A stretch of DNA of 64,000 nucleotides from an uncultured Lachnospiraceae bacterium (GTDB taxonomy: Bacteria > Bacillota > Clostridia > Lachnospirales > Lachnospiraceae): contig CALWSG010000059.1 of NCBI GenBank assembly GCA_944384155.1, forward strand, positions 1 to 64,000, written 5' to 3'. Positions within the stretch are counted from its first letter, which is position 1. Every line of letters starts with the position of its first letter. Made by a program: the position numbers and the translations under genes. Positions 10,292 to 56,804 of the stretch are shown here, piece after piece. The notes under the pieces were generated by a model. That model saw only the letters and a program-made list of their open reading frames with translations. It made no database searches and had not been told where the DNA came from.

Positions 10292-10476
10292 GTAGCTATT
10301 TTAATACAAATATGGAATAAAAACAATAATCTTAAACATACTTTCTAAATAATTTATAATTGGCAGCCTGAATTTCCATAAATTAAAAATACCCAAACTC
10401 AAGAATCGGCAGATATTGTTTTTAGAAAAGGTGTATGATAATATGATAAAAGTATACATGTAAATTTGGTTAGAGT

Positions 10477-10538
10477 GCTGTTTGTGCAGGAGCGTCACAA
10501 ATAAGCATTGAGGGTTTAATAAACGCTCCGGAATGGAG
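10477..10538 (+). promoter_or_regulatory. Repeat element copy A: putative pseudoknot leader before an esterase gene
   Basis: Stem 1 is GCTGTTTGTG (10477-10486) with CACAAATAAGC (10496-10506). Its 9-base loop contains GGAGCGT (10489-10495), which is fully complementary to ACGCTCC (10523-10529). GGAG (10535-10538) follows at a fixed 5-base distance as ribosome binding site of the gene at 10546. CTCC (10526-10529) could alternatively pair with that GGAG. Related copies are at 11473, 16816, 19734-19805 (reverse) and 38152. Confidence 0.6.
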
Positions 10539-10545
10539 AATCAGA

Positions 10546-11493
10546 ATGGCGGAAAATACATGGGCATCAGATATGATTAAAAAAGCAATAAGGGAAACGG
10601 CAGAAAGGTTTAATAACAGCAGTATTGAAACGGCAGAGGATATGATACCTCATATGAGGACAAGAATGGGGGAGAAAAAATATCCTTTAAAATATATGGA
10701 AAATATACAGTATGATAACAGAGAAGATGCCAGAATGGATATATATTATCCTGATACGGGAGAAGGTCCGTTTCCTGTGTTTATAGAGGTTCACGGAGGT
10801 GCATGGTATTTCGGTCAGAAAAGCTCCATAGAGTTTGCACCGTTTTTAAGAGGACTAAAAAGAGGATATGTGTGTATTTCTTTGGGGTATACCCTCTCAC
10901 CTAAGGCAGTTTATCCACAGGCAGTCACAGAGATAAAAAAGGCAATAGGATACATAAAGAAAAACAGTGCTTATCTTAATATTAATCCTGATAAAATAGC
11001 ACTTTGGGGAGGCTCGGCAGGAGCACATCTTGCATCATTGGCAGCTTTAAGCCATGATACGGGATATCTGGAAAGGGAGTCAGGGGGCTGTGACAGTTCC
11101 GTAAATGTACTTGTTTTATGGTATGGCTGTTATAATTATTATCTTGGCAAAAGGCTTGACAGGTGGGTATATGAAAATTTTTTCGGAAAAAGAAACCTTA
11201 GTGAAGCAAGTAATGAAATATTACTGTCCAATCCTGGCTGCCATGTGACAAAGAAAGCACCGTATACCCTGCTGCAGCATGGATTATCAGATACGGTTGT
11301 GCCATACAGTCAGTCTGTATACCTTTATGATATTATAAAAAATATAGCCGGGGAGGAAAGATGTACTCTTGAGCTTATGGAAAAATGTGACCATGCAGAT
11401 ATAAAAATGTTTGCGGAAGGTAATATAAGCAGGGTATTTGATTATATTGACCAAAATATAAGCAGGCATAAAACGCTCCGGAATGGAGGTTAG
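10546..11493 (+). CDS. Alpha/beta hydrolase, acetyl-esterase/BD-FAE type
   Basis: 315 residues. The oxyanion-hole motif HGGAWYFGQ (about residues 83-91) and nucleophile elbow GGSAGAHLA (S about 164) are intact. The acid is in HGLSDTVVPYSQS and the base in KCDHADIKMF, so the triad looks complete, unlike the esterase remnants at the window start. Cytoplasmic, no signal peptide. Enzymes of this group remove acetyl or feruloyl groups from sugars or hydrolyse small esters. The ribosome binding site lies in repeat copy A. The last eight codons (HKTLRNGG) are written in repeat copy E, which also supplies the ribosome binding site of the next gene; the stop is one base before that gene's ATG. Confidence 0.85.
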   Translation: MAENTWASDMIKKAIRETAERFNNSSIETAEDMIPHMRTRMGEKKYPLKYMENIQYDNREDARMDIYYPDTGEGPFPVFIEVHGGAWYFGQKSSIEFAPFLRGLKRGYVCISLGYTLSPKAVYPQAVTEIKKAIGYIKKNSAYLNINPDKIALWGGSAGAHLASLAALSHDTGYLERESGGCDSSVNVLVLWYGCYNYYLGKRLDRWVYENFFGKRNLSEASNEILLSNPGCHVTKKAPYTLLQHGLSDTVVPYSQSVYLYDIIKNIAGEERCTLELMEKCDHADIKMFAEGNISRVFDYIDQNISRHKTLRNGG

Positions 11494-11494: not shown

Positions 11495-12385
11495 ATGAGT
11501 AAATGCAGTATATGTCCCAGAAACTGTAATGCAGACAGAATCAACGGGGAAAAAGGAGTGTGCGGTGTATGTGGGGAAGGAATATACGTATCAAGAGCTG
11601 CACTGCATATGTGGGAGGAGCCTTGCATATCCGGAAGGTCAGGCTCAGGTACTATATTTTTTTCCGGGTGCAATTTAAAGTGTGTATATTGTCAGAATAA
11701 CAGTATATCAAGGGGAATCTGTGGAAAGGAAGTATCCGTGGACAGGCTTTCGGATATATGCATGGAGCTTGAGAAAAAGGGAGCAAATAATATAAACCTT
11801 GTGACTCCAACACATTATGCACTTCATATAAGAGATACAATCGTAAAAGCAAGGGAAAAAGGGCTTAAAATTCCCATTGTGTATAACAGCAGCGGATATG
11901 AAAGCTGTAAAACTTTAAATATGTTAAATGGTCTTATAGATATTTTCCTTGTGGATTTTAAATATATAAGGGAAGAAACGGCACGAAGGTATTCAAAAGC
12001 AAAGGATTACCCAAAGGCAGCAAAGGATGCCATAAGCTGTATGGTGAAGCAGACAGGAAGCTGTAGATTTAATAATGAAGGTCTTATGAGGAAAGGGGTT
12101 ATAGTAAGACATCTGCTCCTTCCCGGGCATGTTGCTGAGGGAAAAGAAATAATAAAATATCTTTATGACACATATGGAAATAATATATATGTTAGTATTA
12201 TGAATCAGTATACTCCCGTGTCAGGCATGGATGAATATCCTGAGATAAACAGAAAAGTTACAAAGAGAGAATATGACAGGCTTGTAAATTATGCCATAGA
12301 GCTTGGAATACAAAATGCATATATACAGGAGGGGGATACGGCAGCGGAAAGCTTTATCCCTAGCTTTGACTGTGAGGGTGTGTAA
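11495..12385 (+). CDS. Radical SAM protein, PflA-like (COG1313 type)
   Basis: The start at 11495 follows GGAGG with 5-base spacing; the ATG at 11483 lies inside the ribosome binding site. 296 residues. A cysteine-rich N-terminus (CSICPRNCNADR, GVCGVCG) precedes the radical SAM core with FFSGCNLKCVYCQNNSIS, whose CxxxCxxC binds the [4Fe-4S] cluster. THYALH, YNSSGYES and VDFKYI are typical of proteins related to pyruvate-formate-lyase activase. The class generates a glycyl or other protein radical or modifies a small substrate, but this subgroup has no settled role. It is cotranscribed with the esterase through the repeat element. It converges with, and overlaps by 26 bases, the XRE gene. Confidence 0.82.
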   Translation: MSKCSICPRNCNADRINGEKGVCGVCGEGIYVSRAALHMWEEPCISGRSGSGTIFFSGCNLKCVYCQNNSISRGICGKEVSVDRLSDICMELEKKGANNINLVTPTHYALHIRDTIVKAREKGLKIPIVYNSSGYESCKTLNMLNGLIDIFLVDFKYIREETARRYSKAKDYPKAAKDAISCMVKQTGSCRFNNEGLMRKGVIVRHLLLPGHVAEGKEIIKYLYDTYGNNIYVSIMNQYTPVSGMDEYPEINRKVTKREYDRLVNYAIELGIQNAYIQEGDTAAESFIPSFDCEGV

Positions 12386-15197: not shown

Positions 15198-16763
15198 ATG
15201 GAATTAAATGGAACAGATACAGATAAAAGTACAGAGCATATGACAGTGGATGCATGCAGGGAAGGGAAGCCTGTATCCGGTACTATACTTGCAGAAAATA
15301 TCAGCATGGAGGAAAAGCTTAGAATATTAAGTGACGCGGCAAAGTATGATGTGGCGTGTACATCAAGCGGAGTTGACAGAAAAGGAAACGGAAAAACCAT
15401 GGGAAGTACAGTGGGCTGCGGCATATGTCATTCCTTTACTCCCGACGGCAGATGTGTTTCTCTTTTGAAGATACTTTTTACAAATGAATGTATATTTGAC
15501 TGTAAATATTGTATTAACAGGTCATCTAATGATGTTCCAAGGGCAACGTTTACACCTGATGAGATTTGCAGACTTACAATAGAATTTTACAGGAGAAATT
15601 ATATAGAGGGATTGTTTTTAAGCTCAGGTATACTTAGAAGCCCCAATTATACAATGGAGCTTATGTATGAAACAATATATAAGCTTAGAAAGGAGTGGAG
15701 ATTTAACGGATATGTCCATGTAAAGGCAATACCGGGTGCCGATTCCATTCTGGTTGAAAACATAGGGTATCTGGCAGACCGTATGAGTGTTAATCTGGAA
15801 TTTCCCACAGCAGACGGATTAAAAAAGCTTGCACCCCACAAAAACAGAAAAAATATACTGACTCCAATGAAGGAAATACAGACAGGTATAGAAAATAACA
15901 GACATATGAATGGTATAGACAATAAATATACCCGTATGGAGATAGATGATGCAAAATATCTTGAGGAGAGCAGGAACATACTGGAGGACAGGCTGGGGCT
16001 TAATAAATATACTCTGAATGGTCCGGAGTCCCATATTCCCCATAATGAAGTGAATATAGGAAAAAAAACATCACTTACAGGGGGATATGTGGGAACAAAA
16101 AGCAGATATTTTGTTCCGGCAGGTCAGAGTACACAGATGATAGTAGGAGCCACAGATGAGAGTGATTATCATATTATAAATGTTACGGAAGCATTGTATG
16201 ATAATTATGATTTAAAAAGAGTGTTCTATTCGGCATTTATTAATGTAAATAATGATGCGGATTTGCCGTCAACAGTAAACGGTGCTGGGCTGTTAAGAGA
16301 ACACAGATTATATCAGGCAGACTGGCTGTTAAGATTTTATGGCTTTAAGGCAAAAGAACTGCTATCGGAGGACAACCCTTATTTTAATGATAAGATAGAT
16401 CCTAAATGTGATTGGGCAGTGAGACATTTGGAGCACTTTCCGGTGGAGATAAATAAAGCCGACTATTATACCCTGTTGAGAGTCCCGGGAATAGGCGTTA
16501 AAAGTGCCAAGAGGATAATTGCCGCAAGACGGCACGGCAGTTTAACCTTTGATGATATAAAAAAGATGGGAGTGGTATTAAAAAGGGCACTTTATTTTAT
16601 TACCTGCAAAGGAAGAATGATGTATCAGACAAAGCTTGAGGAGAAATATATAACAAATCACCTTATATATAATGAGCCTCCTCATAGTATGCTTGCAGGT
16701 GGAAGCAGTGTAACATATACCCAAATGAATATTAGTGACTTTATATCTTGTGAGGACTGGTGA
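15198..16763 (+). CDS. Putative DNA modification/repair radical SAM protein (TIGR03916 type)
   Basis: Start at ATG 15198 after AAGAGGTGATAACA; the GTG at 15189 lies inside the ribosome binding site. 521 residues. The radical SAM cluster motif is CIFDCKYCINRSS (C-x3-C-x2-C, about residues 101-108), preceded by the cysteine-rich TVGCGICHSFTPDGRC. SVNLEFPT and GAGLLREHRLYQADWLLRFY are typical of the family TIGR03916 ('rSAM_link_UDG'). A C-terminal helix-hairpin-helix (LLRVPGIGVKSAKRIIAARR, about 433-452) implies DNA contact. The next gene is its usual partner, TIGR03915. The upstream SOS-like box agrees with a role in DNA damage. The reaction is unknown. Confidence 0.88.
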   Translation: MELNGTDTDKSTEHMTVDACREGKPVSGTILAENISMEEKLRILSDAAKYDVACTSSGVDRKGNGKTMGSTVGCGICHSFTPDGRCVSLLKILFTNECIFDCKYCINRSSNDVPRATFTPDEICRLTIEFYRRNYIEGLFLSSGILRSPNYTMELMYETIYKLRKEWRFNGYVHVKAIPGADSILVENIGYLADRMSVNLEFPTADGLKKLAPHKNRKNILTPMKEIQTGIENNRHMNGIDNKYTRMEIDDAKYLEESRNILEDRLGLNKYTLNGPESHIPHNEVNIGKKTSLTGGYVGTKSRYFVPAGQSTQMIVGATDESDYHIINVTEALYDNYDLKRVFYSAFINVNNDADLPSTVNGAGLLREHRLYQADWLLRFYGFKAKELLSEDNPYFNDKIDPKCDWAVRHLEHFPVEINKADYYTLLRVPGIGVKSAKRIIAARRHGSLTFDDIKKMGVVLKRALYFITCKGRMMYQTKLEEKYITNHLIYNEPPHSMLAGGSSVTYTQMNISDFISCEDW

Positions 16764-16815
16764 GAAAAATAAGCTTGATACCTTATTTTTCACAAGCTAT
16801 GCACAACTTGGCTTT

Positions 16816-16844
16816 GGCTGTTTTGTTACGCTCCGGAATGGAGG
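16816..16844 (+). promoter_or_regulatory. Repeat element copy C: truncated, inside the repair operon
   Basis: GGCTGTTTTGT (16816-16826) matches the 5' strand of stem 1, then runs directly into TACGCTCCGGAATGGAGG, so the GGAGCG loop and the 3' strand are missing. Upstream, TTTTTCACAAGCTATGCA (16787-16804) resembles the outer part of copy B. GGAGG (16840-16844) is the ribosome binding site of the next gene. Confidence 0.55.
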
Positions 16845-16849
16845 TTAGT

Positions 16850-17671
16850 ATGGAAGAAAAATTAGTTTTACTGTGTGATGGTACTATAGATGGAATATTG
16901 ACTGCGGTTTATGAAGGCTTTGTAATAAAAAATCAAAGGTTCGGCATGGAGAGCAGAGAATATAGGGATAATATAGATATTTGTGTATCATGTAATTACA
17001 ACAGCTATATGTTTGCTGAGTATATAGATATACCAAAGGACTATGACAAATCTCTTAAAACCGCAGCAGCCATAAGAAAGAAAATAGGTGAGGAGGCATA
17101 TAATATGGTCATAAAAGCACTTTGTCACTATGACGAGGAAAGAGCATCATTAGTATTTGGTTTTCTGGTGAGAGGCTTTAAGCTGGGTAAGGGTGTAGTA
17201 AATATGCTGGGAGATAAGTATGTTATGAAGGTTATGGAGCTTTCACGAAAGGCAGGAAATGAGGCATACAGGTTTATAGAGCATATAAGATTTAAGGATA
17301 TGGGAGAAGCATTATACAGTGTCATAGAGCCTAAGTGCAGAGTAATACCTTTAATAGGAGCTCATTTTGATGAAAGATATCCAAATGAAAACTGGATAAT
17401 ATATGATAAGACAAACAGGGAGGCGGCATTGCATAAGTGCTTTCAGCCTTGGATAATAGTGTCAGGGGATGCCTTTGACCGCAGTAGTGCCTTTTATGAT
17501 AATATATCAGGGAGAAATTCCCGGAATTTACAGTGTTATGAAGAGGATAATTATGAGGAGCTATGGAAGACCTTTCTTGATTCTCTTTATATAAAAGAAA
17601 GAAAAAATGAAAGGTGTCAGAATAATCTTTTGCCTAAATGGTACAGAAAGAATATGACAGAATTTATGTAA
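16850..17671 (+). CDS. Probable DNA metabolism protein, DUF4130 (TIGR03915 type)
   Basis: ATG 16850 is chosen because GGAATGGAGGTTAGT precedes it; an in-frame ATG at 16760 would translate through the repeat element. 273 residues. LLCDGTIDGILTAVYEGF at the start and NENWIIYDKTNREAALHK later are the conserved blocks of TIGR03915/DUF4130, which is found next to the TIGR03916 radical SAM gene and is often fused to a uracil-DNA-glycosylase-like domain. Here the glycosylase part is absent, since the protein ends shortly after the DUF. The pair probably acts on damaged or modified DNA bases, but this remains a context-based inference. Confidence 0.85.
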   Translation: MEEKLVLLCDGTIDGILTAVYEGFVIKNQRFGMESREYRDNIDICVSCNYNSYMFAEYIDIPKDYDKSLKTAAAIRKKIGEEAYNMVIKALCHYDEERASLVFGFLVRGFKLGKGVVNMLGDKYVMKVMELSRKAGNEAYRFIEHIRFKDMGEALYSVIEPKCRVIPLIGAHFDERYPNENWIIYDKTNREAALHKCFQPWIIVSGDAFDRSSAFYDNISGRNSRNLQCYEEDNYEELWKTFLDSLYIKERKNERCQNNLLPKWYRKNMTEFM

Positions 17672-17735: not shown

Positions 17736-19727
17736 TTAAATTTGGGTGCTGTTATTGCCGTTATTATTTTGGCTGTTATAGTTATTGTAGTTATTGTAGT
17801 CTGTGTAAGGCGGAACATTATAATACATATTTTGAGAGCTCTGACGTTTTTTTCTGCCTTTTATTATTATAAGAATAATTGTAAGAATTATGGCAATTAA
17901 GGTAATGACTATTGCTCCTATTAGGATGCATACGGTAACAATCAGATATGTATCTGCCTTTTTCAGTGATTCATATGCAAGCTCTATATAAGACGTACTG
18001 TTCTCAAATATTTTTCTTACAATAAACAGTATCCACATTAAGACTGAAAGAATCCAGCATATAATGTCTGCTGCCGGAAGCAGCAAACCGGCCTTTTTGC
18101 CTTTCTTCTGCCTTTTGCTTTCAGCAGGAGTGGTGTTGGCAGTGTGGTTAATATTTACAGCATTGCTTTTTTTCTTTTTCCTTCGAGTCATAAGCAGAGT
18201 AATTGTTATTCCTGCCACGGATAATAAAAGACCTATTCCTAAAGGAATAAAAGGATTATAATTACTGCTGTCTGTTGAAAGAATGTTGGCAGTTTTCTTT
18301 GTTACGGTTGCTGTAAGAGAAGTACTGCTGTCACCTGAGGAGGCCGTAAGGACAATGGAATTTTTTCCATCCTTAAGCTCATACACATATGAAAATACAC
18401 CGTTATCTATATTAACATCTTCATCATTTACAGTCAGTGATGAGCCGCTTGTTGTTCCTGCGATAATAATAGTATCATTTGATGTAGTTACGCCATCTAA
18501 TTCCTTAATAAGCTCAAGAGTAGGTGCAGTATTGCTGATATTAGCCATTCTGTTATATATATGAGTGTAGCCATTACTGTCAATATAGGAAATCTCTATA
18601 GTATTTCTTGTTTCCGGAAGAGTAAGTGATTTGCTTCCGTCACCGTCAAGGGTGTATGTTTGGGCGTCGCCGTTTATATTAAAGGTAACTTCCGTGTCAT
18701 TGGCATTTTTATATTGGAATGACCATATTTCAGAACCGGTTTTTCCGCTTTCAGGTATGATAAGAGATATGGAATTGCTGTCATCTAAAGGAATGTCAAA
18801 TGACTTAAAGCCGGATGATATCCCATTATTATTTTTAACGCTTATTTTTAATGACAGAGTCTTTGAATCCTCCTCATAAGTAAAAAAGCCTGTTGTTCCC
18901 TCTGATACAGGATATTCCTGTGAACTTATCTGCTCATTGTCTATGTAATATTCCACAAATACACTGTCTGTATCATATCCTATATAATTGCCCCAATCAG
19001 CCGTCACAGACCTGGTATCATGTGATATGGTAATATCTGCGTCGTCTATTGAATCAGGAGTTTCGGGATTTGTGTAATCAAAGCTGCTGCTGTAGCTGTA
19101 ATCAAATACTTCAGAGCCGTTTTGGCTGTATGATACATACAGCAGTAAGTAATATTCACTGTAAGTGCTGACACTGTCAAGGGATATGTCCTCGGCAATA
19201 GTTTCACCTACGGTTCCCGTTCCTGTGGCCAGTGTTTTTCCGGTGAGGGATTGTGTATCTGTTGTAATCATAACAGAGTAGGAGTAGGTTTCAGCTTTTG
19301 AGCCTGTCACACTAAAGGTTACCGGAATTTTACCGTCTGCTATATCCCCTTTATTAAATGAGGTTATCCAAAATGAAGAATCTTGGATTCCCGCGTGAAT
19401 TGTTATGCTTTCATTGGAGCCTTTATCATATTTAATTTTCCATTGTCCAGCCTCAGCATTGCCTATAAATATGATTGTTGAGGAAGAACCGCTAAATACA
19501 GTAATATTTTCAGTGTCCGTATCCTTTGTTATCTCAGAACCTGAGGGAGATATAAGCTTAAAGGATATATCATTATGCTCGTATTGAATAAAAACGGCTA
19601 TATCCTGGGTTGTATCATTGTTAAATAAATCAGCTTCCGTTTCCGCACCGGATACAGTCATAAGCAGTGACATTACGGTAATTATTGATATAAGAAAGAC
19701 TGATGTATATTTTTTTAATTTTTCCAT
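17736..19727 (-). CDS. Secreted/membrane protein with Ig-like repeats and C-terminal membrane helices
   Basis: The start is taken at 19727, behind the GGAG of repeat copy B; the ATG four codons earlier overlaps that site. 663-664 residues. A signal peptide (about 1-30) leads a long Ser/Thr/Asp-rich extracellular part made of beta-sandwich-like modules (about 35-480). A membrane helix follows at about 489-511, then KKKK and a cytoplasmic linker. Two more hydrophobic segments lie at about 547-570 and 592-620, and the tail is Asn/Tyr-rich. No catalytic motif is visible. It is encoded 121 bases after the vWA protein on the same strand and probably works with it at the cell surface; the intergenic spacer is occupied by repeat copy B. 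Confidence 0.75.
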   Translation of the reverse strand: MEKLKKYTSVFLISIITVMSLLMTVSGAETEADLFNNDTTQDIAVFIQYEHNDISFKLISPSGSEITKDTDTENITVFSGSSSTIIFIGNAEAGQWKIKYDKGSNESITIHAGIQDSSFWITSFNKGDIADGKIPVTFSVTGSKAETYSYSVMITTDTQSLTGKTLATGTGTVGETIAEDISLDSVSTYSEYYLLLYVSYSQNGSEVFDYSYSSSFDYTNPETPDSIDDADITISHDTRSVTADWGNYIGYDTDSVFVEYYIDNEQISSQEYPVSEGTTGFFTYEEDSKTLSLKISVKNNNGISSGFKSFDIPLDDSNSISLIIPESGKTGSEIWSFQYKNANDTEVTFNINGDAQTYTLDGDGSKSLTLPETRNTIEISYIDSNGYTHIYNRMANISNTAPTLELIKELDGVTTSNDTIIIAGTTSGSSLTVNDEDVNIDNGVFSYVYELKDGKNSIVLTASSGDSSTSLTATVTKKTANILSTDSSNYNPFIPLGIGLLLSVAGITITLLMTRRKKKKSNAVNINHTANTTPAESKRQKKGKKAGLLLPAADIICWILSVLMWILFIVRKIFENSTSYIELAYESLKKADTYLIVTVCILIGAIVITLIAIILTIILIIIKGRKKRQSSQNMYYNVPPYTDYNNYNNYNSQNNNGNNSTQI

Positions 19728-19733
19728 ATAAAT

Positions 19734-19826
19734 CTCCATTCCAGAGCGTTTATGTCACAGGGTTTTTATTATGGCTTATTTGTGACGCTCCGGCACCAAT
19801 AAGCCAGAGCCATTATTTGCATGGCT
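19734..19826 (-). promoter_or_regulatory. Repeat element copy B: putative pseudoknot leader, longest copy
   Basis: Read on the reverse strand: a small perfect hairpin AGCCAT/ATGGCT (19826-19808), then stem 1 GGCTTATTGGTG (19805-19794) with CACAAATAAGCC (19784-19773), 11 of 12 pairs. The loop contains CCGGAGCG (19793-19786), which pairs with CGCTCTGG (19748-19741, one G-U). After GGAAT comes GGAG (19737-19734), the ribosome binding site of the gene starting at 19727. Confidence 0.6.
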
Positions 19827-19848
19827 TGTGAAATGTAAGCTTCTTAAA

Positions 19849-37849: not shown

Positions 37850-38131
37850 ATGTAATGCCAAAGAGGAGTAGGAGAATAACCCTTTAAGAGAGAATGGCTC
37901 ATCGGCTGAAAGGTCATTTAAGGCAGTGTTCTTTGAAGGTAGCTTTGAAACAGCATATCCGAGAAAGCAGTGTTTAAATTTCATTGGAGGTAGGATATGA
38001 CGGCTCGTCACCGTTAAAGGATAAGATAAGTAAAAATCAAGGTGGTACCGCGTTCATTTCGCCCTTGTGATGTGAAAGCCGGTATGACATTATAAAGTAA
38101 AATAAATGGCAGAGCTTTTGCTCTGCTTTTA
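37850..38131 (+). ncRNA. T-box riboswitch controlling valS
   Basis: Stem I begins near AGAGGAGTAGGAG (AGTA element) with the distal loop around AAGAGAGAATGGCTC. GAAG-GTA-GCTTTGAA at 37935-37949 has the layout of a specifier loop, and GTA (37939-37941) is a valine codon, matching the gene downstream. The conserved T-box AAGGTGGTACCGCG is at 38039-38052. A terminator GCAGAGC-TTTT-GCTCTGC with TTTT ends at about 38130. Uncharged tRNA-Val would stabilise the antiterminator and allow valS transcription. Confidence 0.93.
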
Positions 38132-38151
38132 TTTTATCAGATTTTTCACAG

Positions 38152-38208
38152 GGCTGTTTGTGTAAAAACTCACAAATAAGCCTGTTATAAATAGCTTTGA
38201 AATGGAGG
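38152..38208 (+). promoter_or_regulatory. Repeat element copy D: diverged pseudoknot leader before valS
   Basis: Stem 1 is GGCTGTTTGTG (38152-38162) with CACAAATAAGCC (38171-38182). The 8-base loop holds AAAACT (38165-38170), opposite AGCTTT (38193-38198): five of six pairs, with a different sequence from GGAGCG/CGCTCC in copies A and B. GAAAT and then GGAGG (38204-38208) lead to the valS ATG at 38215. It lies downstream of the T-box terminator, so it is present only in full-length valS mRNA. Confidence 0.6.
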
Positions 38209-38214
38209 AACACT

Positions 38215-40854
38215 ATGAAAAAGGAATTGGAAAAGACCTACAATCCTGCCGATATTGAGACAAGGACATATGAAAAATGGCTTAAGAAAAAGTATTTTCA
38301 TGCAGAGGTAAAAAAGGACAAAAAGCCATTTACCATTGTTATGCCGCCTCCAAATATTACGGGACAGCTTCATATGGGTCATGCACTTGACAATACATTG
38401 CAGGATATTATTATCAGAATGAAAAGAATGCAGGGCTATGAGGCACTGTGGCTTCCCGGCACGGACCATGCATCTATAGCAACGGAGGCAAAGGTAGTAG
38501 AGGCAATTAAAAAGGAAGGCTTATCAAAGGAAGATCTTGGCAGGGAAAAGTTTCTTGACAGGGTATGGGATTGGAAAAAGCAGTATGGAGGAAGAATAGT
38601 ATCCCAGCTTAAGAAAATCGGCTCATCATGCGACTGGGACAGAGAACGGTTTACAATGGACGAAGGCTGCAGCAGGGCTGTAAAGGAAGTGTTTGTAAAT
38701 CTTTATAATAAGGGGCTGATTTACAGAGGAGAAAGGATAATAAACTGGTGTCCTAAGTGTCTTACCTCCATATCAGATGCCGAGGTTGAGTATGAGGATC
38801 AGGCAGGACATTTCTGGCATTTAAGATACAAACTGTCTGACGGAAGCGGATATATTAATCTTGCCACAACAAGACCGGAAACACTTTTGGGAGACACTGC
38901 AATAGCAGTAAATCCAAAGGACGAAAGATATAAAAATATTGTTGGAAAGACAGTTGTTCTTCCTATAGTACACAGGGAGATACCTGTAGTTGCAGATGAT
39001 TATGTAGAGATGGACTTTGGAACAGGCGTTGTTAAAATTACTCCTGCACATGACCCTAATGACTTTGAGGTGGGTGCAAGACATAATCTTCCTATTATCA
39101 ATGTAATGACAGATGATGCGAGGATAACAGAGGATTACCCTAAATATGCGGGAATGGACAGATATGAGGCAAGAAAGGCAATTGTTGAGGACCTTGAGGC
39201 AGAAGGAGCTCTGGTAAAGGTTGAGGATTACAGCCACAATGTGGGAACCTGTTACAGATGCGGTACAACAGTAGAGCCAAGAGTATCAAAGCAGTGGTTT
39301 GTTAAGATGAAGCCTTTGGCAGGACCTGCCATAGATGCGGTAAAGAAAAGTGAGACAAGATTTATTCCTCCTCATTTTGAAAAGACATATTTTCACTGGC
39401 TTGAAAATATCAGAGACTGGTGTATATCAAGACAGCTTTGGTGGGGACATCAGATACCTGCATTCTACTGTGACGAATGTGGAGAAACTGTAGTTACGAA
39501 GGAGAATCACACAGTTTGTCCTAAGTGTGGAAAGCCTATGAGACAAGACCCTGACACACTTGATACCTGGTTCTCATCAGCACTGTGGCCGTTTTCAACA
39601 CTTGGATGGCCTGAGAAGACAGAAGAAATGAAATATTTCTATCCTACAAATGTTCTTGTAACAGGATATGATATTATTCCTTTCTGGGTAATGAGAATGA
39701 TGTTTTCAGGTATAGAAAATACAGGGCAGGTACCATTTGATACAGTATTTATACATGGGCTTGTGAGAGATTCTCTTGGAAGAAAAATGAGTAAATCCTT
39801 AGGAAACGGAATAGACCCTCTCGAGGTAATAGAAAAGTACGGTGCAGATGCGTTAAGATTTACCCTTGTAACAGGAAATGCGCCGGGAAATGATATGAGA
39901 TTCTACTGGGAGAGAGTAGAGGCAAGCAGAAACTTTGCAAACAAAGTATGGAATGCATCAAGATTTATAATGATGAATCTTGAGAAGGCAGAAAATGTAA
40001 ATGAAAATGATGCAGAGCTTACAGATGCAGATAAGTGGATAATCTCCAAGATGAATACTCTTGTAAAAGAAGTAACGGAAAATATGGAGAAGTATGAGCT
40101 TGGTGTTGCAGTGTCAAAGCTTTATGATTTTATCTGGGAGGAATTTTGCGACTGGTATATTGAGATGGTTAAGCCAAGGCTTTACAATGATGGGGATACT
40201 ACAAAAAATGCAGCAATATATACTTTGAAGACAGTGCTTATCAATTCATTAAAGCTCCTTCACCCTTATATGCCGTTTATTACAGAGGAAATATTCTGCA
40301 ATCTTCAGGACAAAGAGGAATCAATAATGATTTCAAAGTGGCCTGAATATAAGGAGGAATATAACTTTAAAGATGAAGAGGAAGCTATAGAAATCATAAA
40401 GACGGCAGTGAGAAATATAAGAAACCTTCGTGCTGATATGAATGTGCCGCCAAGCAGAAAGGCAAAGGTATTTGTAGTGTCAGAAAGTGACAGGGTAAAG
40501 GAGATATTTGAAAAAGGCAGTGTGTTCTTTGGAACCCTTGGCTATGCAGGCGAAGTTGTAATACAGTCAGACAAAACGGGAATAGATGATGACGCAGTAT
40601 CAACGGTTATTCCTGAGGCAGTTATATATATGCCGTTTGCGGAGCTTGTAGATATAGACAAGGAGATAGAACGTCTTACAAAGGAAAAGGAAAGACTGAT
40701 AAAGGAGCTTAAGAGAGTTGAAGGTATGCTTGGAAATCCTAACTTTGTAAATAAGGCGCCTGAGGCAAAGATAAATGAGGAGAGGGAAAAGCAAAATAAA
40801 TACTCTCAGATGATGAAGCAGGTAGAGGAAAGACTTAATCATCTTGTTAAATGA
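38215..40854 (+). CDS. valS: Valyl-tRNA synthetase
   Basis: 879 residues. The start at 38215 follows AATGGAGGAACACT; an ATG six codons earlier overlaps the repeat element. Class I signatures are [14 protein letters not shown] (HIGH motif) and [10 protein letters not shown] (KMSKS). The editing domain carries [12 protein letters not shown] and the zinc-ribbon cysteines are in CYRCGT and CDECGE/CPKCGK. The C-terminal coiled coil ([20 protein letters not shown]) binds tRNA-Val. Expression is set by the upstream T-box. Confidence 0.98.
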
Positions 40855-54411: not shown

Positions 54412-54461
54412 AACTTACAGGAAAATATTTGGGATAGACAGCTTGGGAATGGAGGATTAGT

Positions 54462-56804
54462 ATGGGTGAAATGGTATATGGAATACCTGTAATTACATTA
54501 AAGGGTCTGACTATACTGCCGGGTATGGCAGTTCATTTTGATGTGCTTAGAAAACGGTCTGTAGCAGCATTGGAGGCGGCAATGAAGGATGACCAAAAGG
54601 TTTTTCTTGTGGCACAGCAAAACAGTGAGGAAAATGAGCCTCAGATGCAGGATTTATATAAAGTGGGAGTGGTAGCAGAGATAAAACAGTTGATTAAGCT
54701 GCCAAGCGGAGTAATAAGAGTACTGGTAGATGATGGTAAAAGAGGGAAAATAGCAGAGCTTTATGATGAGGCTCCTTACATAAAGGCAGATGTAGAATGT
54801 CTTGAAGTGGAAATGGAGGATGTAGACCCTGTGGAGGGTGAGGCTATGTGCCGTGTAATAAAAGAGCTGTTAGGACAGTATGTATTTGAAAATCCTAAGC
54901 TTAATAAAGATGCTGTGAGAAATATTATCCAGACAAGAGACGTAAAAAGTCTTATGGAGCAGACTATAAACTGTATTCCTCTTTATTACGATAGTAAGCA
55001 GCAGTTTCTTGAGGCGGATACTGTACGGGAGCAATACCGGCTGCTGACGGAGTTTTTATCTGATGAAATACATATAAGCAGAATCAGAAAGGACTTTCAG
55101 GAGAAGGTTAAGGAGAAGGTAGAAAAAAACCAAAAGGAATATATTTTAAGAGAGCAGATGAAGCTTATAAGGCAGGAGCTTGGCGAGGAGGATACTGTTT
55201 CGGAGGCTGACACATATTTTGAGGAATTAAGGAGTCTTAATGCTTCAGATGAGGTAAAGGAAAAAATAGAAAAAGAAATAAAGCGGTTTAAAAATCTTTC
55301 ATCAGGCTCATCAGAAAGCAATGTTGTAAGGGGCTATATAGAAACACTTCTTGAGATGCCATGGAATAATATGTCTGAGGATAATCTTGACATAAAAAAT
55401 GCGGAGAGAATATTAAACAGGGATCATTACGGCTTGGAGAAGGTCAAGGAGCGTATGCTTGAATTTTTGGCAGTGAGGGCATTTGCCATTAAGAATAATA
55501 AAGGAAAGGATTTAGACGGCAAAAGAGTAAGTCCCATTATATGTCTTGTAGGACCTCCGGGAACAGGCAAAACCTCTATTGTAAAGTCAATAGCAGAGGC
55601 GCTTAACAAAAAATATGTAAGGCTGTGTCTTGGAGGAGTGAGAGATGAGGCAGAGATAAGGGGACACAGAAAAACATATGTAGGTGCAATGCCGGGAAGA
55701 ATAGCCGCCGCATTAAAGCAGGCAGGTGTAAATAATCCTCTTATGCTGTTAGATGAGATAGACAAAATGGGTAATGATTATAAGGGAGATCCTGCAAGTG
55801 CAATGCTGGAGGTACTTGACAGTGAACAGAATTCCCATTTTAGGGATAATTATATAGAGATACCTATAGACCTTTCCAATGTAATGTTTATAGCAACTGC
55901 AAATGATTTGCATACAATTCCAAGACCACTTTTAGACAGAATGGAGGTCATTGAAATCTCAGGATATACTGAGAATGAAAAGGAGCATATAGCAAGAGAG
56001 CATCTTGTGAGCAAGCAGAAGAAGTCTCACTGTCTGAAAGGCTCCCAGCTGACAATAACAAAGAGTGCCATTAATGCCATTATTAGATCGTATACAAGAG
56101 AGGCAGGAGTGAGAAATCTTGAAAGAATGATAGGAAAGGTGTGCAGAAAGGCTGCTAAGGAGATACTGGAGGGAGAGGCTGACAGTATAAAGGTTACAAA
56201 TAAAAATTTAAGGGAATATCTCGGAAAGGAAAAATATACCTTAGACAAGGCGTCAGGCAGAGATGAGGTAGGAATAGTAAGGGGACTTGCATGGACCAGT
56301 GTTGGAGGAGACACTTTAGAAATAGAGGTAAATACATACAAGGGAAAAGGGGAGGTCATCCTTACGGGACAGCTTGGAGAAGTAATGCAGGAATCGGCAC
56401 AGGCAGGAATTTCATATATTCGTTCCATGGCACAAAAATATAATATATCAGATGAGTTTTTTAAAGAAAATGATATTCATATTCATATTCCGGAGGGGGC
56501 GGTACCAAAGGACGGACCGTCTGCGGGAATAACAATGGCAACGGCTGTCATATCTGCAATAACGGGAAGAAAAGTTAAAGCTGCAGTGGCAATGACAGGA
56601 GAGATAACCTTGAGAGGGAGAGTGCTTCCTATAGGTGGTTTAAAGGAAAAGCTCCTTGCAGCCAAGACGGCAGGTATAAAAACTGTTCTTGTTCCAAAGA
56701 AGAATACTGCTGATATTGAAGAGATAGACTCTGAGATAAAAGAAGGACTTGACATTAAGTATGTTGAAAATATGGAACAGGTTATTAAGGAGGCAATAGT
56801 GTGA
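54462..56804 (+). CDS. lon: Lon protease
   Basis: 780 residues, RBS AATGGAGGATTAGT. The N-terminal substrate domain (to about 210) is followed by a coiled-coil segment and an AAA+ module with Walker A GPPGTGKTSIVKS and Walker B LLDEIDKM. The C-terminal protease has catalytic serine in PKDGPSAGITMATA and lysine in GGLKEKLLAAK. It degrades misfolded and regulatory proteins. It overlaps ysxC by four bases. No CtsR or CIRCE operator was seen upstream. Confidence 0.97.
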   Translation: MGEMVYGIPVITLKGLTILPGMAVHFDVLRKRSVAALEAAMKDDQKVFLVAQQNSEENEPQMQDLYKVGVVAEIKQLIKLPSGVIRVLVDDGKRGKIAELYDEAPYIKADVECLEVEMEDVDPVEGEAMCRVIKELLGQYVFENPKLNKDAVRNIIQTRDVKSLMEQTINCIPLYYDSKQQFLEADTVREQYRLLTEFLSDEIHISRIRKDFQEKVKEKVEKNQKEYILREQMKLIRQELGEEDTVSEADTYFEELRSLNASDEVKEKIEKEIKRFKNLSSGSSESNVVRGYIETLLEMPWNNMSEDNLDIKNAERILNRDHYGLEKVKERMLEFLAVRAFAIKNNKGKDLDGKRVSPIICLVGPPGTGKTSIVKSIAEALNKKYVRLCLGGVRDEAEIRGHRKTYVGAMPGRIAAALKQAGVNNPLMLLDEIDKMGNDYKGDPASAMLEVLDSEQNSHFRDNYIEIPIDLSNVMFIATANDLHTIPRPLLDRMEVIEISGYTENEKEHIAREHLVSKQKKSHCLKGSQLTITKSAINAIIRSYTREAGVRNLERMIGKVCRKAAKEILEGEADSIKVTNKNLREYLGKEKYTLDKASGRDEVGIVRGLAWTSVGGDTLEIEVNTYKGKGEVILTGQLGEVMQESAQAGISYIRSMAQKYNISDEFFKENDIHIHIPEGAVPKDGPSAGITMATAVISAITGRKVKAAVAMTGEITLRGRVLPIGGLKEKLLAAKTAGIKTVLVPKKNTADIEEIDSEIKEGLDIKYVENMEQVIKEAIV

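Follow-up and report, generated by a model that had tools for sequence, protein, structure and literature searches.

Copies in the window

The window, by which we mean the whole 64,000-nt stretch of DNA that was analysed, holds six members of a repeat family, each situated 5' of a gene start. The genes that follow them encode a BD-FAE esterase, a radical SAM protein, a DUF4130 protein, a Glucodextran_B-domain protein, ValS and Lon (Pfam confirms valS and lon) and are unrelated, as the initial annotation of this DNA had remarked. Most of the six are truncated remnants, the best complete copies being found elsewhere in the host genome; hairpins H1 and H4 and the optional H2 belong to the complete element and were not discernible from the window at that stage. 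The features are the following.

10476..10507 (+): copy A, hairpin H3, TGCTGTTTGTG / CACAAATAAGCA, with the loop GGAGCG at 10489-10494 (from the sequence and the covariation of this helix in the family)
10524..10529 (+): copy A, pseudoknot strand CGCTCC, pairing with the loop at 10489-10494 (from the sequence and, in the family, the co-evolution of loop and strand)
10530..10538 (+): copy A, right end GGAATGGAG, with the Shine-Dalgarno (SD) sequence GGAG at 10535-10538, 7 nt 5' of the esterase ATG at 10546
11470..11488 (+): copy B, right end alone (AAAACGCTCCGGAATGGAG), without H3, 5' of the radical SAM gene start at 11495
16760..16843 (+): copy C, H1 kept (16760-16795), only the 5' arm left of H3, right end CGCTCCGGAATGGAG (covariance model, E 5e-8)
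19734..19828 (-): copy D, remnant of H2 and full H3 (19805-19774) (covariance model, E 3e-10)
38151..38207 (+): copy E, H3 stem 38151-38162 / 38171-38182, right end AGCTTTGAAATGGAG, 5' of the valS start at 38215
54441..54454 (+): copy F, right end alone, GCTTGGGAATGGAG, 5' of the lon start at 54462

Copy A is matched by the covariance model at 10441-10538 (+) with 44.5 bits (E 1e-10), whereas the matches of copy B (11419-11488, +, E 0.011) and copy E (38100-38207, +, E 0.028) are weak. Copy C precedes the DUF4130 gene start at 16850, and copy D carries, on the minus strand, the loop GGAGCG at 19791-19786, the pseudoknot strand CGCTCT at 19748-19743 and an SD at 19737-19734 before the ATG at 19727. 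The initial annotation had listed five copies, all of which are matched by the model, two of them weakly; the sixth, at 54441, was not among them. It had also placed a GGAGCG loop in the third stem-bearing copy (the one with CTTT, 38152), where the loop is in fact TAAAAAC, the copy being degenerate and its pseudoknot lost. Within the window, only the copies at 10477 and 19805 (-) possess both the GGAGCG loop of H3 and the strand with which it pairs.

Copy number and distribution

The repeats before start codons are real and more numerous than first claimed. The motif GCTYYGGAATGGAG, allowing at most one mismatch, has 60 matches in the 2.21-Mb host genome as compared to one for the reversed pattern, with about one expected in the window, and a chance repeat was rejected on these counts; the hairpin TTTGTGNNGGAGCGTCACAAAT occurs 30 times in the same genome. 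The suggestion to look for further copies with a covariance model in the host and its relatives proved fruitful: with a search model in which the pseudoknot was not encoded, 195 relatives were screened and 24 of them have the element, frequently with a minimum of 12-17 copies. The distribution is patchy even among congeners (17 copies in G001, zero in G002 and G003), and class-wide the element was found in 4 of 391 genomes, all four within the host's family. Motif counts follow the presence of the element, with 60 in G000 and 62 in G064 but, in the element-free sample, 3-6 in seven genomes and 2 in G005, the congeners G002 and G003 having 3 and 5. The hairpin pattern had no match in IMG/VR, arguing against phage carriage, and a plasmid search found the element in no plasmid.

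Anatomy and fold

A full copy comprises about 131 nt (complete host copies of 131 nt are for example L020 and L206) and consists of H1, in some copies H2, H3, H4, the partner strand of the H3 loop, and the right end GGAATGGAG, followed by the start codon. Read from the left, the native SD is followed by NNT, an A and H1 (GTGTGAAAAAT..ATTTTTCACAC, of the form A-GTGTG..CACAC) and the optional H2; then come H3 (GGCTATTTGTG-CCGGAGCGT-CACAAATAGCC), H4 (GGCAGACGCGAAT..ATTCGCGTCGCC) and a spacer; and finally CGCTCCGG, AATGGAG, NNT and the start codon. The element itself contains no open reading frame.

All three hairpins, H1, H3 and H4, covary. In 106 model-aligned sequences 94.2% of the cells are paired, and 467 cells show two-sided changes as compared to 126 ± 7.5 after shuffling, distributed over 31 of 37 pairs, although such an alignment is biased toward its model. 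In an independent MAFFT alignment of 30 sequences 94.9% of the cells pair and 20 pairs show two-sided changes, as compared to 11.2 after shuffling. In slid controls the paired cells drop to 38-52%. The minimum free energy of a full host copy has a z-score of -7.4. In H3 the sequence of the lower stem and of the loop varies hardly at all.

Several derivatives were observed. A recurrent short form in the host (L004, L006, L009, L015, L030) has the 5' arm of H3 (TTTGTG) joined straight to ACGCTCCGGAATGGAG, as if the region between the two had been deleted, and short internal-deletion derivatives are found in the left flank of L308 and at L368. In tandem or nested copies (L195, L199, L109, L123, L018) the SD region of one right end is the left flank of the next copy.

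The pseudoknot

The initial annotation had proposed an H-type pseudoknot between the H3 loop and the strand before the SD. The first sequence set was chosen on the H3 loop itself, and for this reason relatives were searched with a model lacking the pseudoknot and loop variants were fetched; the pseudoknot is not encoded in this model, but its consensus retains the usual loop letters. Compensatory changes between the loop and the 3' strand are present in many independent forms: CCGGAGCG/CGCTCCGG, CTGAGCG/CGCTCAG, CTGAGCAA/TTGCTCAG, CCGCAGGCG and CCGCAGACG/CGTCTGCGG, TCGGAGC/GCTCCGA, CCGAAGC/GCTTCGG, CCGGAGCAC/GTGCTCCGG and ACGGGCT/AGCTCGT. Loops paired with their own strands reach a duplex score of 20.5, as compared to 13.9 ± 0.8 for permuted pairs with a maximum of 17.2 in 20,000 permutations, and with one representative per strand type the values are 19.2 and 14.2 ± 0.6. 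The two arms co-evolve despite being 60-80 nt apart with other hairpins between them.

Position at gene starts and empty sites

Of 199 copies, 180 precede a start codon that opens a frame of 60 codons or more, the distance between SD and start codon being exactly 6 nt in 135, whereas only 16.8% of control GGAG sites in the same loci pass this test. A frame on the same strand ends at most 60 nt upstream in 118 of the 199 copies, indicating that many copies lie inside operons. Genes downstream, from translations read by eye, include trpE, pyrF, pyrK, acyP, hflC, fliJ, znuB, coaE, uvrB, rbfA, plsY and holB. The element lies directly 3' of a native SD, which is kept on its left side (parB AGAAATGGAGA, moxR GGAGGAGTA), and supplies an SD of its own at the right end, so that an SD still lies some 6 nt 5' of the gene's start codon.

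There are orthologous sites of conserved synteny at which the element is absent. The orthologues of moxR, znuB, hflC, fliJ, acyP and pyrK in G001 have short ordinary leaders without the element and the same upstream neighbours wherever these could be read. Similarly, G195 and G196 lack the element at ispG, rpiB, lspA and other genes, and G195 lacks it at parB, where G141 carries near-identical copies. These comparisons involve congeners at roughly 70-80% nucleotide identity rather than strains, and locus-by-locus loss in the congener is therefore possible; G078 and G168 are too diverged to give clean empty sites. In the lspA leader of G141 (L239/L317) a copy of the CTGCGG subtype is inserted behind the right end of a copy of the CGCTCAG subtype, so that two subtypes have been active within one genome.

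We consider it probable (roughly 0.8) that the family is a folded mobile element, non-autonomous and about 131 nt long, that targets ribosome-binding sites and has reached dozens of copies in some Lachnospiraceae. The alternative of a mobile, RNA-structured leader, already raised in the initial annotation, is backed by the empty syntenic sites. At the level of sequence this reading rests on copy number, fold, co-evolution of the pseudoknot, position at start codons, empty sites, the native SD outside the element and a partial 3-nt repeat. The element would insert directly 3' of a gene's SD (GGAG-NNT|) in the orientation of the gene, moved in trans by an enzyme with specificity for the folded strand; the fold would be maintained largely for mobility, and the built-in SD would render insertions tolerable. 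Such an element would be specialised for the narrow gap between SD and start codon and survive by virtue of its own ribosome-binding site, and in common gut bacteria housekeeping genes by the dozen, unrelated to one another, would now share one folded leader. The family makes it possible to test how a sequence inserts at ribosome-binding sites, what moves folded repeats of high copy number where no transposase is resident, and whether insertions rewire translation within operons. Against a mobile element stand the failure to find a transposase or other mobiliser among those sought, the lack of inverted terminal repeats and the incomplete flanking repeat. Moreover, the conserved left SD and an NTG in H1 could reflect a functional leader ORF rather than a target preference, and a stable G.U in the pseudoknot of one subtype suits RNA better.

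Junctions and a possible recombinase route

Identity between left and right flanks exceeds permutation only at positions -4, -3 and -2 before H1 (z 3.9, 4.3 and 6.6) and is at permutation level at -1 and within the SDs. A first permutation test had suggested a long target-site duplication, which the per-position analysis restricts to identity over 3 nt. Exact 4-mer flank matches number 26 as compared to 8.3 ± 2.4. The 3-nt repeat, preceded by an SD on both sides, matches fully in about one third of the copies and is mismatched in three of nine near-identical (young) copies of G141; this pattern fits either a duplication of 3 nt that changed afterwards or an insertion mechanism with coupling sequences. 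The left end AGTGTGAAAAAT does not match the reverse complement of the right end CTCCATTCCGGAGCG, that is, there are no terminal inverted repeats. No autonomous copy was seen among 30 H1 loci from three genomes, since H3 adjoins H1 in 29 and the remaining locus is a short deletion derivative.

Tyrosine recombinases of some conjugative elements insert with coupling sequences through an excised circle. It could be imagined that a recombinase of this kind leaves 3-nt coupling sequences (the NNT after GGAG on both sides), a route that would account for the restriction of flank identity to three bases, for the partial match in young copies and for the tandem arrays with shared SD junctions (L195, L199, L109). 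However, no recombinase is linked to the copies, an excised circle was not seen and an overlap of 3 nt would be unusual, and we regard this route as possible but improbable.

A proposed translational switch

The initial annotation had also envisaged a cis-regulatory switch, in which the formed pseudoknot frees the SD and the broken pseudoknot lets CTCC mask GGAG. On this reading the element would be selected for regulation of the downstream genes. Consistent with such a switch, the pseudoknot strand ends 3 nt 5' of the SD in nearly all copies, the element lies in sense orientation and the SD-start spacing is fixed at 6 nt. The masking hairpin itself is a different matter: CTCC/GGAG shows no two-sided change in 30 sequences, its co-evolution test is marginal (p = 0.04), and it cannot form in the CTGCGGAATGGAG (CTGCGG) subtype (G141, G017, G009), which keeps pseudoknot and SD. 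The switch as drawn is therefore unsupported, its SD hairpin showing no covariation and being missing from an entire subtype; a conserved anti-SD pairing that covaries and excludes another helix, the mark of an SD-sequestering switch, was not found. Further points against regulation as the selected function are the random housekeeping genes downstream, the same genes without the element in congeners and the loss of H3 with retention of the SD in many copies. Taken together, such a switch is unlikely.

The idea of mutually exclusive pairings nevertheless survives in another form. A small hairpin immediately upstream, H5, competes for the pseudoknot strand, of which it takes up the 5' portion, and the two pairings exclude each other. 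H5 takes the forms GCG-UAAA-CGC, GCAA-UAAA-UUGC, GACGC-AUAA-GCGUC and GCAC-AGAA-GUGC and co-evolves (own score 9.35 versus 8.05 ± 0.26, p < 5e-5). Two exclusive states of the element, other than those first proposed, are plausible for this reason. A putative regulatory role for the downstream genes is possible and might operate through the pseudoknot and H5 states, or through ribosomes that start at the native SD, translate into the element and then re-initiate.

Constraint on DNA or RNA

At well-paired positions 63 G.U and 48 A.C combinations were counted among 3366 cells, G.U being hardly commoner, as compared to 8.5% G.U in 11 tRNAs of the same loci, a small control biased by the caller and indicative only. 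The near-equal rarity of G.U and A.C is a hint of a constraint acting on the hairpins at the DNA level, or of their upkeep through quasi-palindrome correction, and suits mobility more than regulation. On the other hand, the stable G.U within the G141-type pseudoknot fits RNA better than DNA. If the two-sided changes in H1, H3 and H4 arose by quasi-palindrome correction, that is, template switching at imperfect DNA hairpins, and not by selection for the fold, few G.U intermediates would be expected, as observed. Such correction does not explain why pseudoknot arms so far apart, across other hairpins, co-evolve, or why H3 shows almost no variation in its lower stem and loop, and it is quite unlikely as the source of these changes.

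Proposed target recognition and a possible transposase

It is a speculative and very doubtful proposal that the mobile element finds its targets by pairing with the SD, the CUCC-bearing right end binding the gene's GGAG during insertion, either as RNA or as folded single-stranded DNA. The pseudoknot formed with the H3 loop would restrain the right end; if true, insertion by SD pairing would spread a portable translation-initiation module through the genome.

A MITE-like derivative of the IS200/IS605 family, moved by a Y1 (HUH) transposase that acts on a folded single strand and inserts it 3' of a fixed target without true duplication, would share with our element the subterminal hairpins, the fixed target in the left flank and the lack of inverted repeats, and the near parity of G.T and A.C would agree with it. 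Yet PF01797 (Y1 transposase) had no match in the high-copy genomes G000, G001, G045, G063, G141 and G145, while many copy-free genomes have one, and the architecture of the ends differs and the 3-nt flank correlation is unexpected, which makes this origin highly improbable.

An NTG start codon (GTG, TTG, ATG, once CTG) is located at H1 positions 3-5 in 79 of 90 copies at normal spacing from the native SD, from which translation may consequently run into the element. A conserved small leader ORF starting there is hardly credible despite the correct spacing, as frame and length vary, the stop falls variously in H1/H2, in H3, in H4, in the pseudoknot/SD region or past the start, H1 lineages use different frames, and a conserved leader peptide is accordingly disfavoured.

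Relation to known systems

No Rfam family was matched by the element at the gathering threshold, only tRNA being found, which bears out the earlier statement that no known family was recognised, and the open papers that were searched contain no description that fits. Within the reach of this search, the landing site, the own SD and the pseudoknot are new features.

BOX, ERIC, NEMIS, bcr1 and MITEs are small structured interspersed repeats of bacteria, and these are by analogy the closest known kinds. Compared by general description, they are likewise short, non-coding, folded, of high copy number, patchy, non-autonomous and close to genes. The element differs in having no inverted terminal repeats, an exact landing behind the SD, its own SD, a long-range pseudoknot and no known mobiliser. 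A MITE of a DDE transposon would have terminal inverted repeats, missing here, and a target-site duplication of constant length; in our element flank identity above permutation spans 3 nt, with about one third of copies matching. Riboswitch-type leaders controlling SD access also have a pseudoknot beside the SD and one strand with a competing pairing, whereas the element is mobile, precedes unrelated genes and has no conserved anti-SD pairing.

TD-2 RNA (RF03162), a Treponema denticola motif, also has three hairpins in a row. It matches G063-type copies (L256, L257, L258, L260) with 36-39 bits (E 0.01-0.05), below the gathering threshold of 48.7; the main matches are antisense to the element, the sense strand reaching 25.8 bits and not the 48.7 bits of a member, and only one subtype matches. 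Palindromic hairpins produce such spurious matches on both strands.

Three records labelled UNVERIFIED Bacteriophage carry the element, MT836788.1 (L391), MT837007.1 (L392) and MT838414.1 (L393). MT837007.1 appears to be bacterial chromosome (acyltransferase-like frame), as does MT836788.1, where frames read by eye resemble FeoB, cysteine desulfurase (iscS) and enolase and the copy of the element precedes eno.
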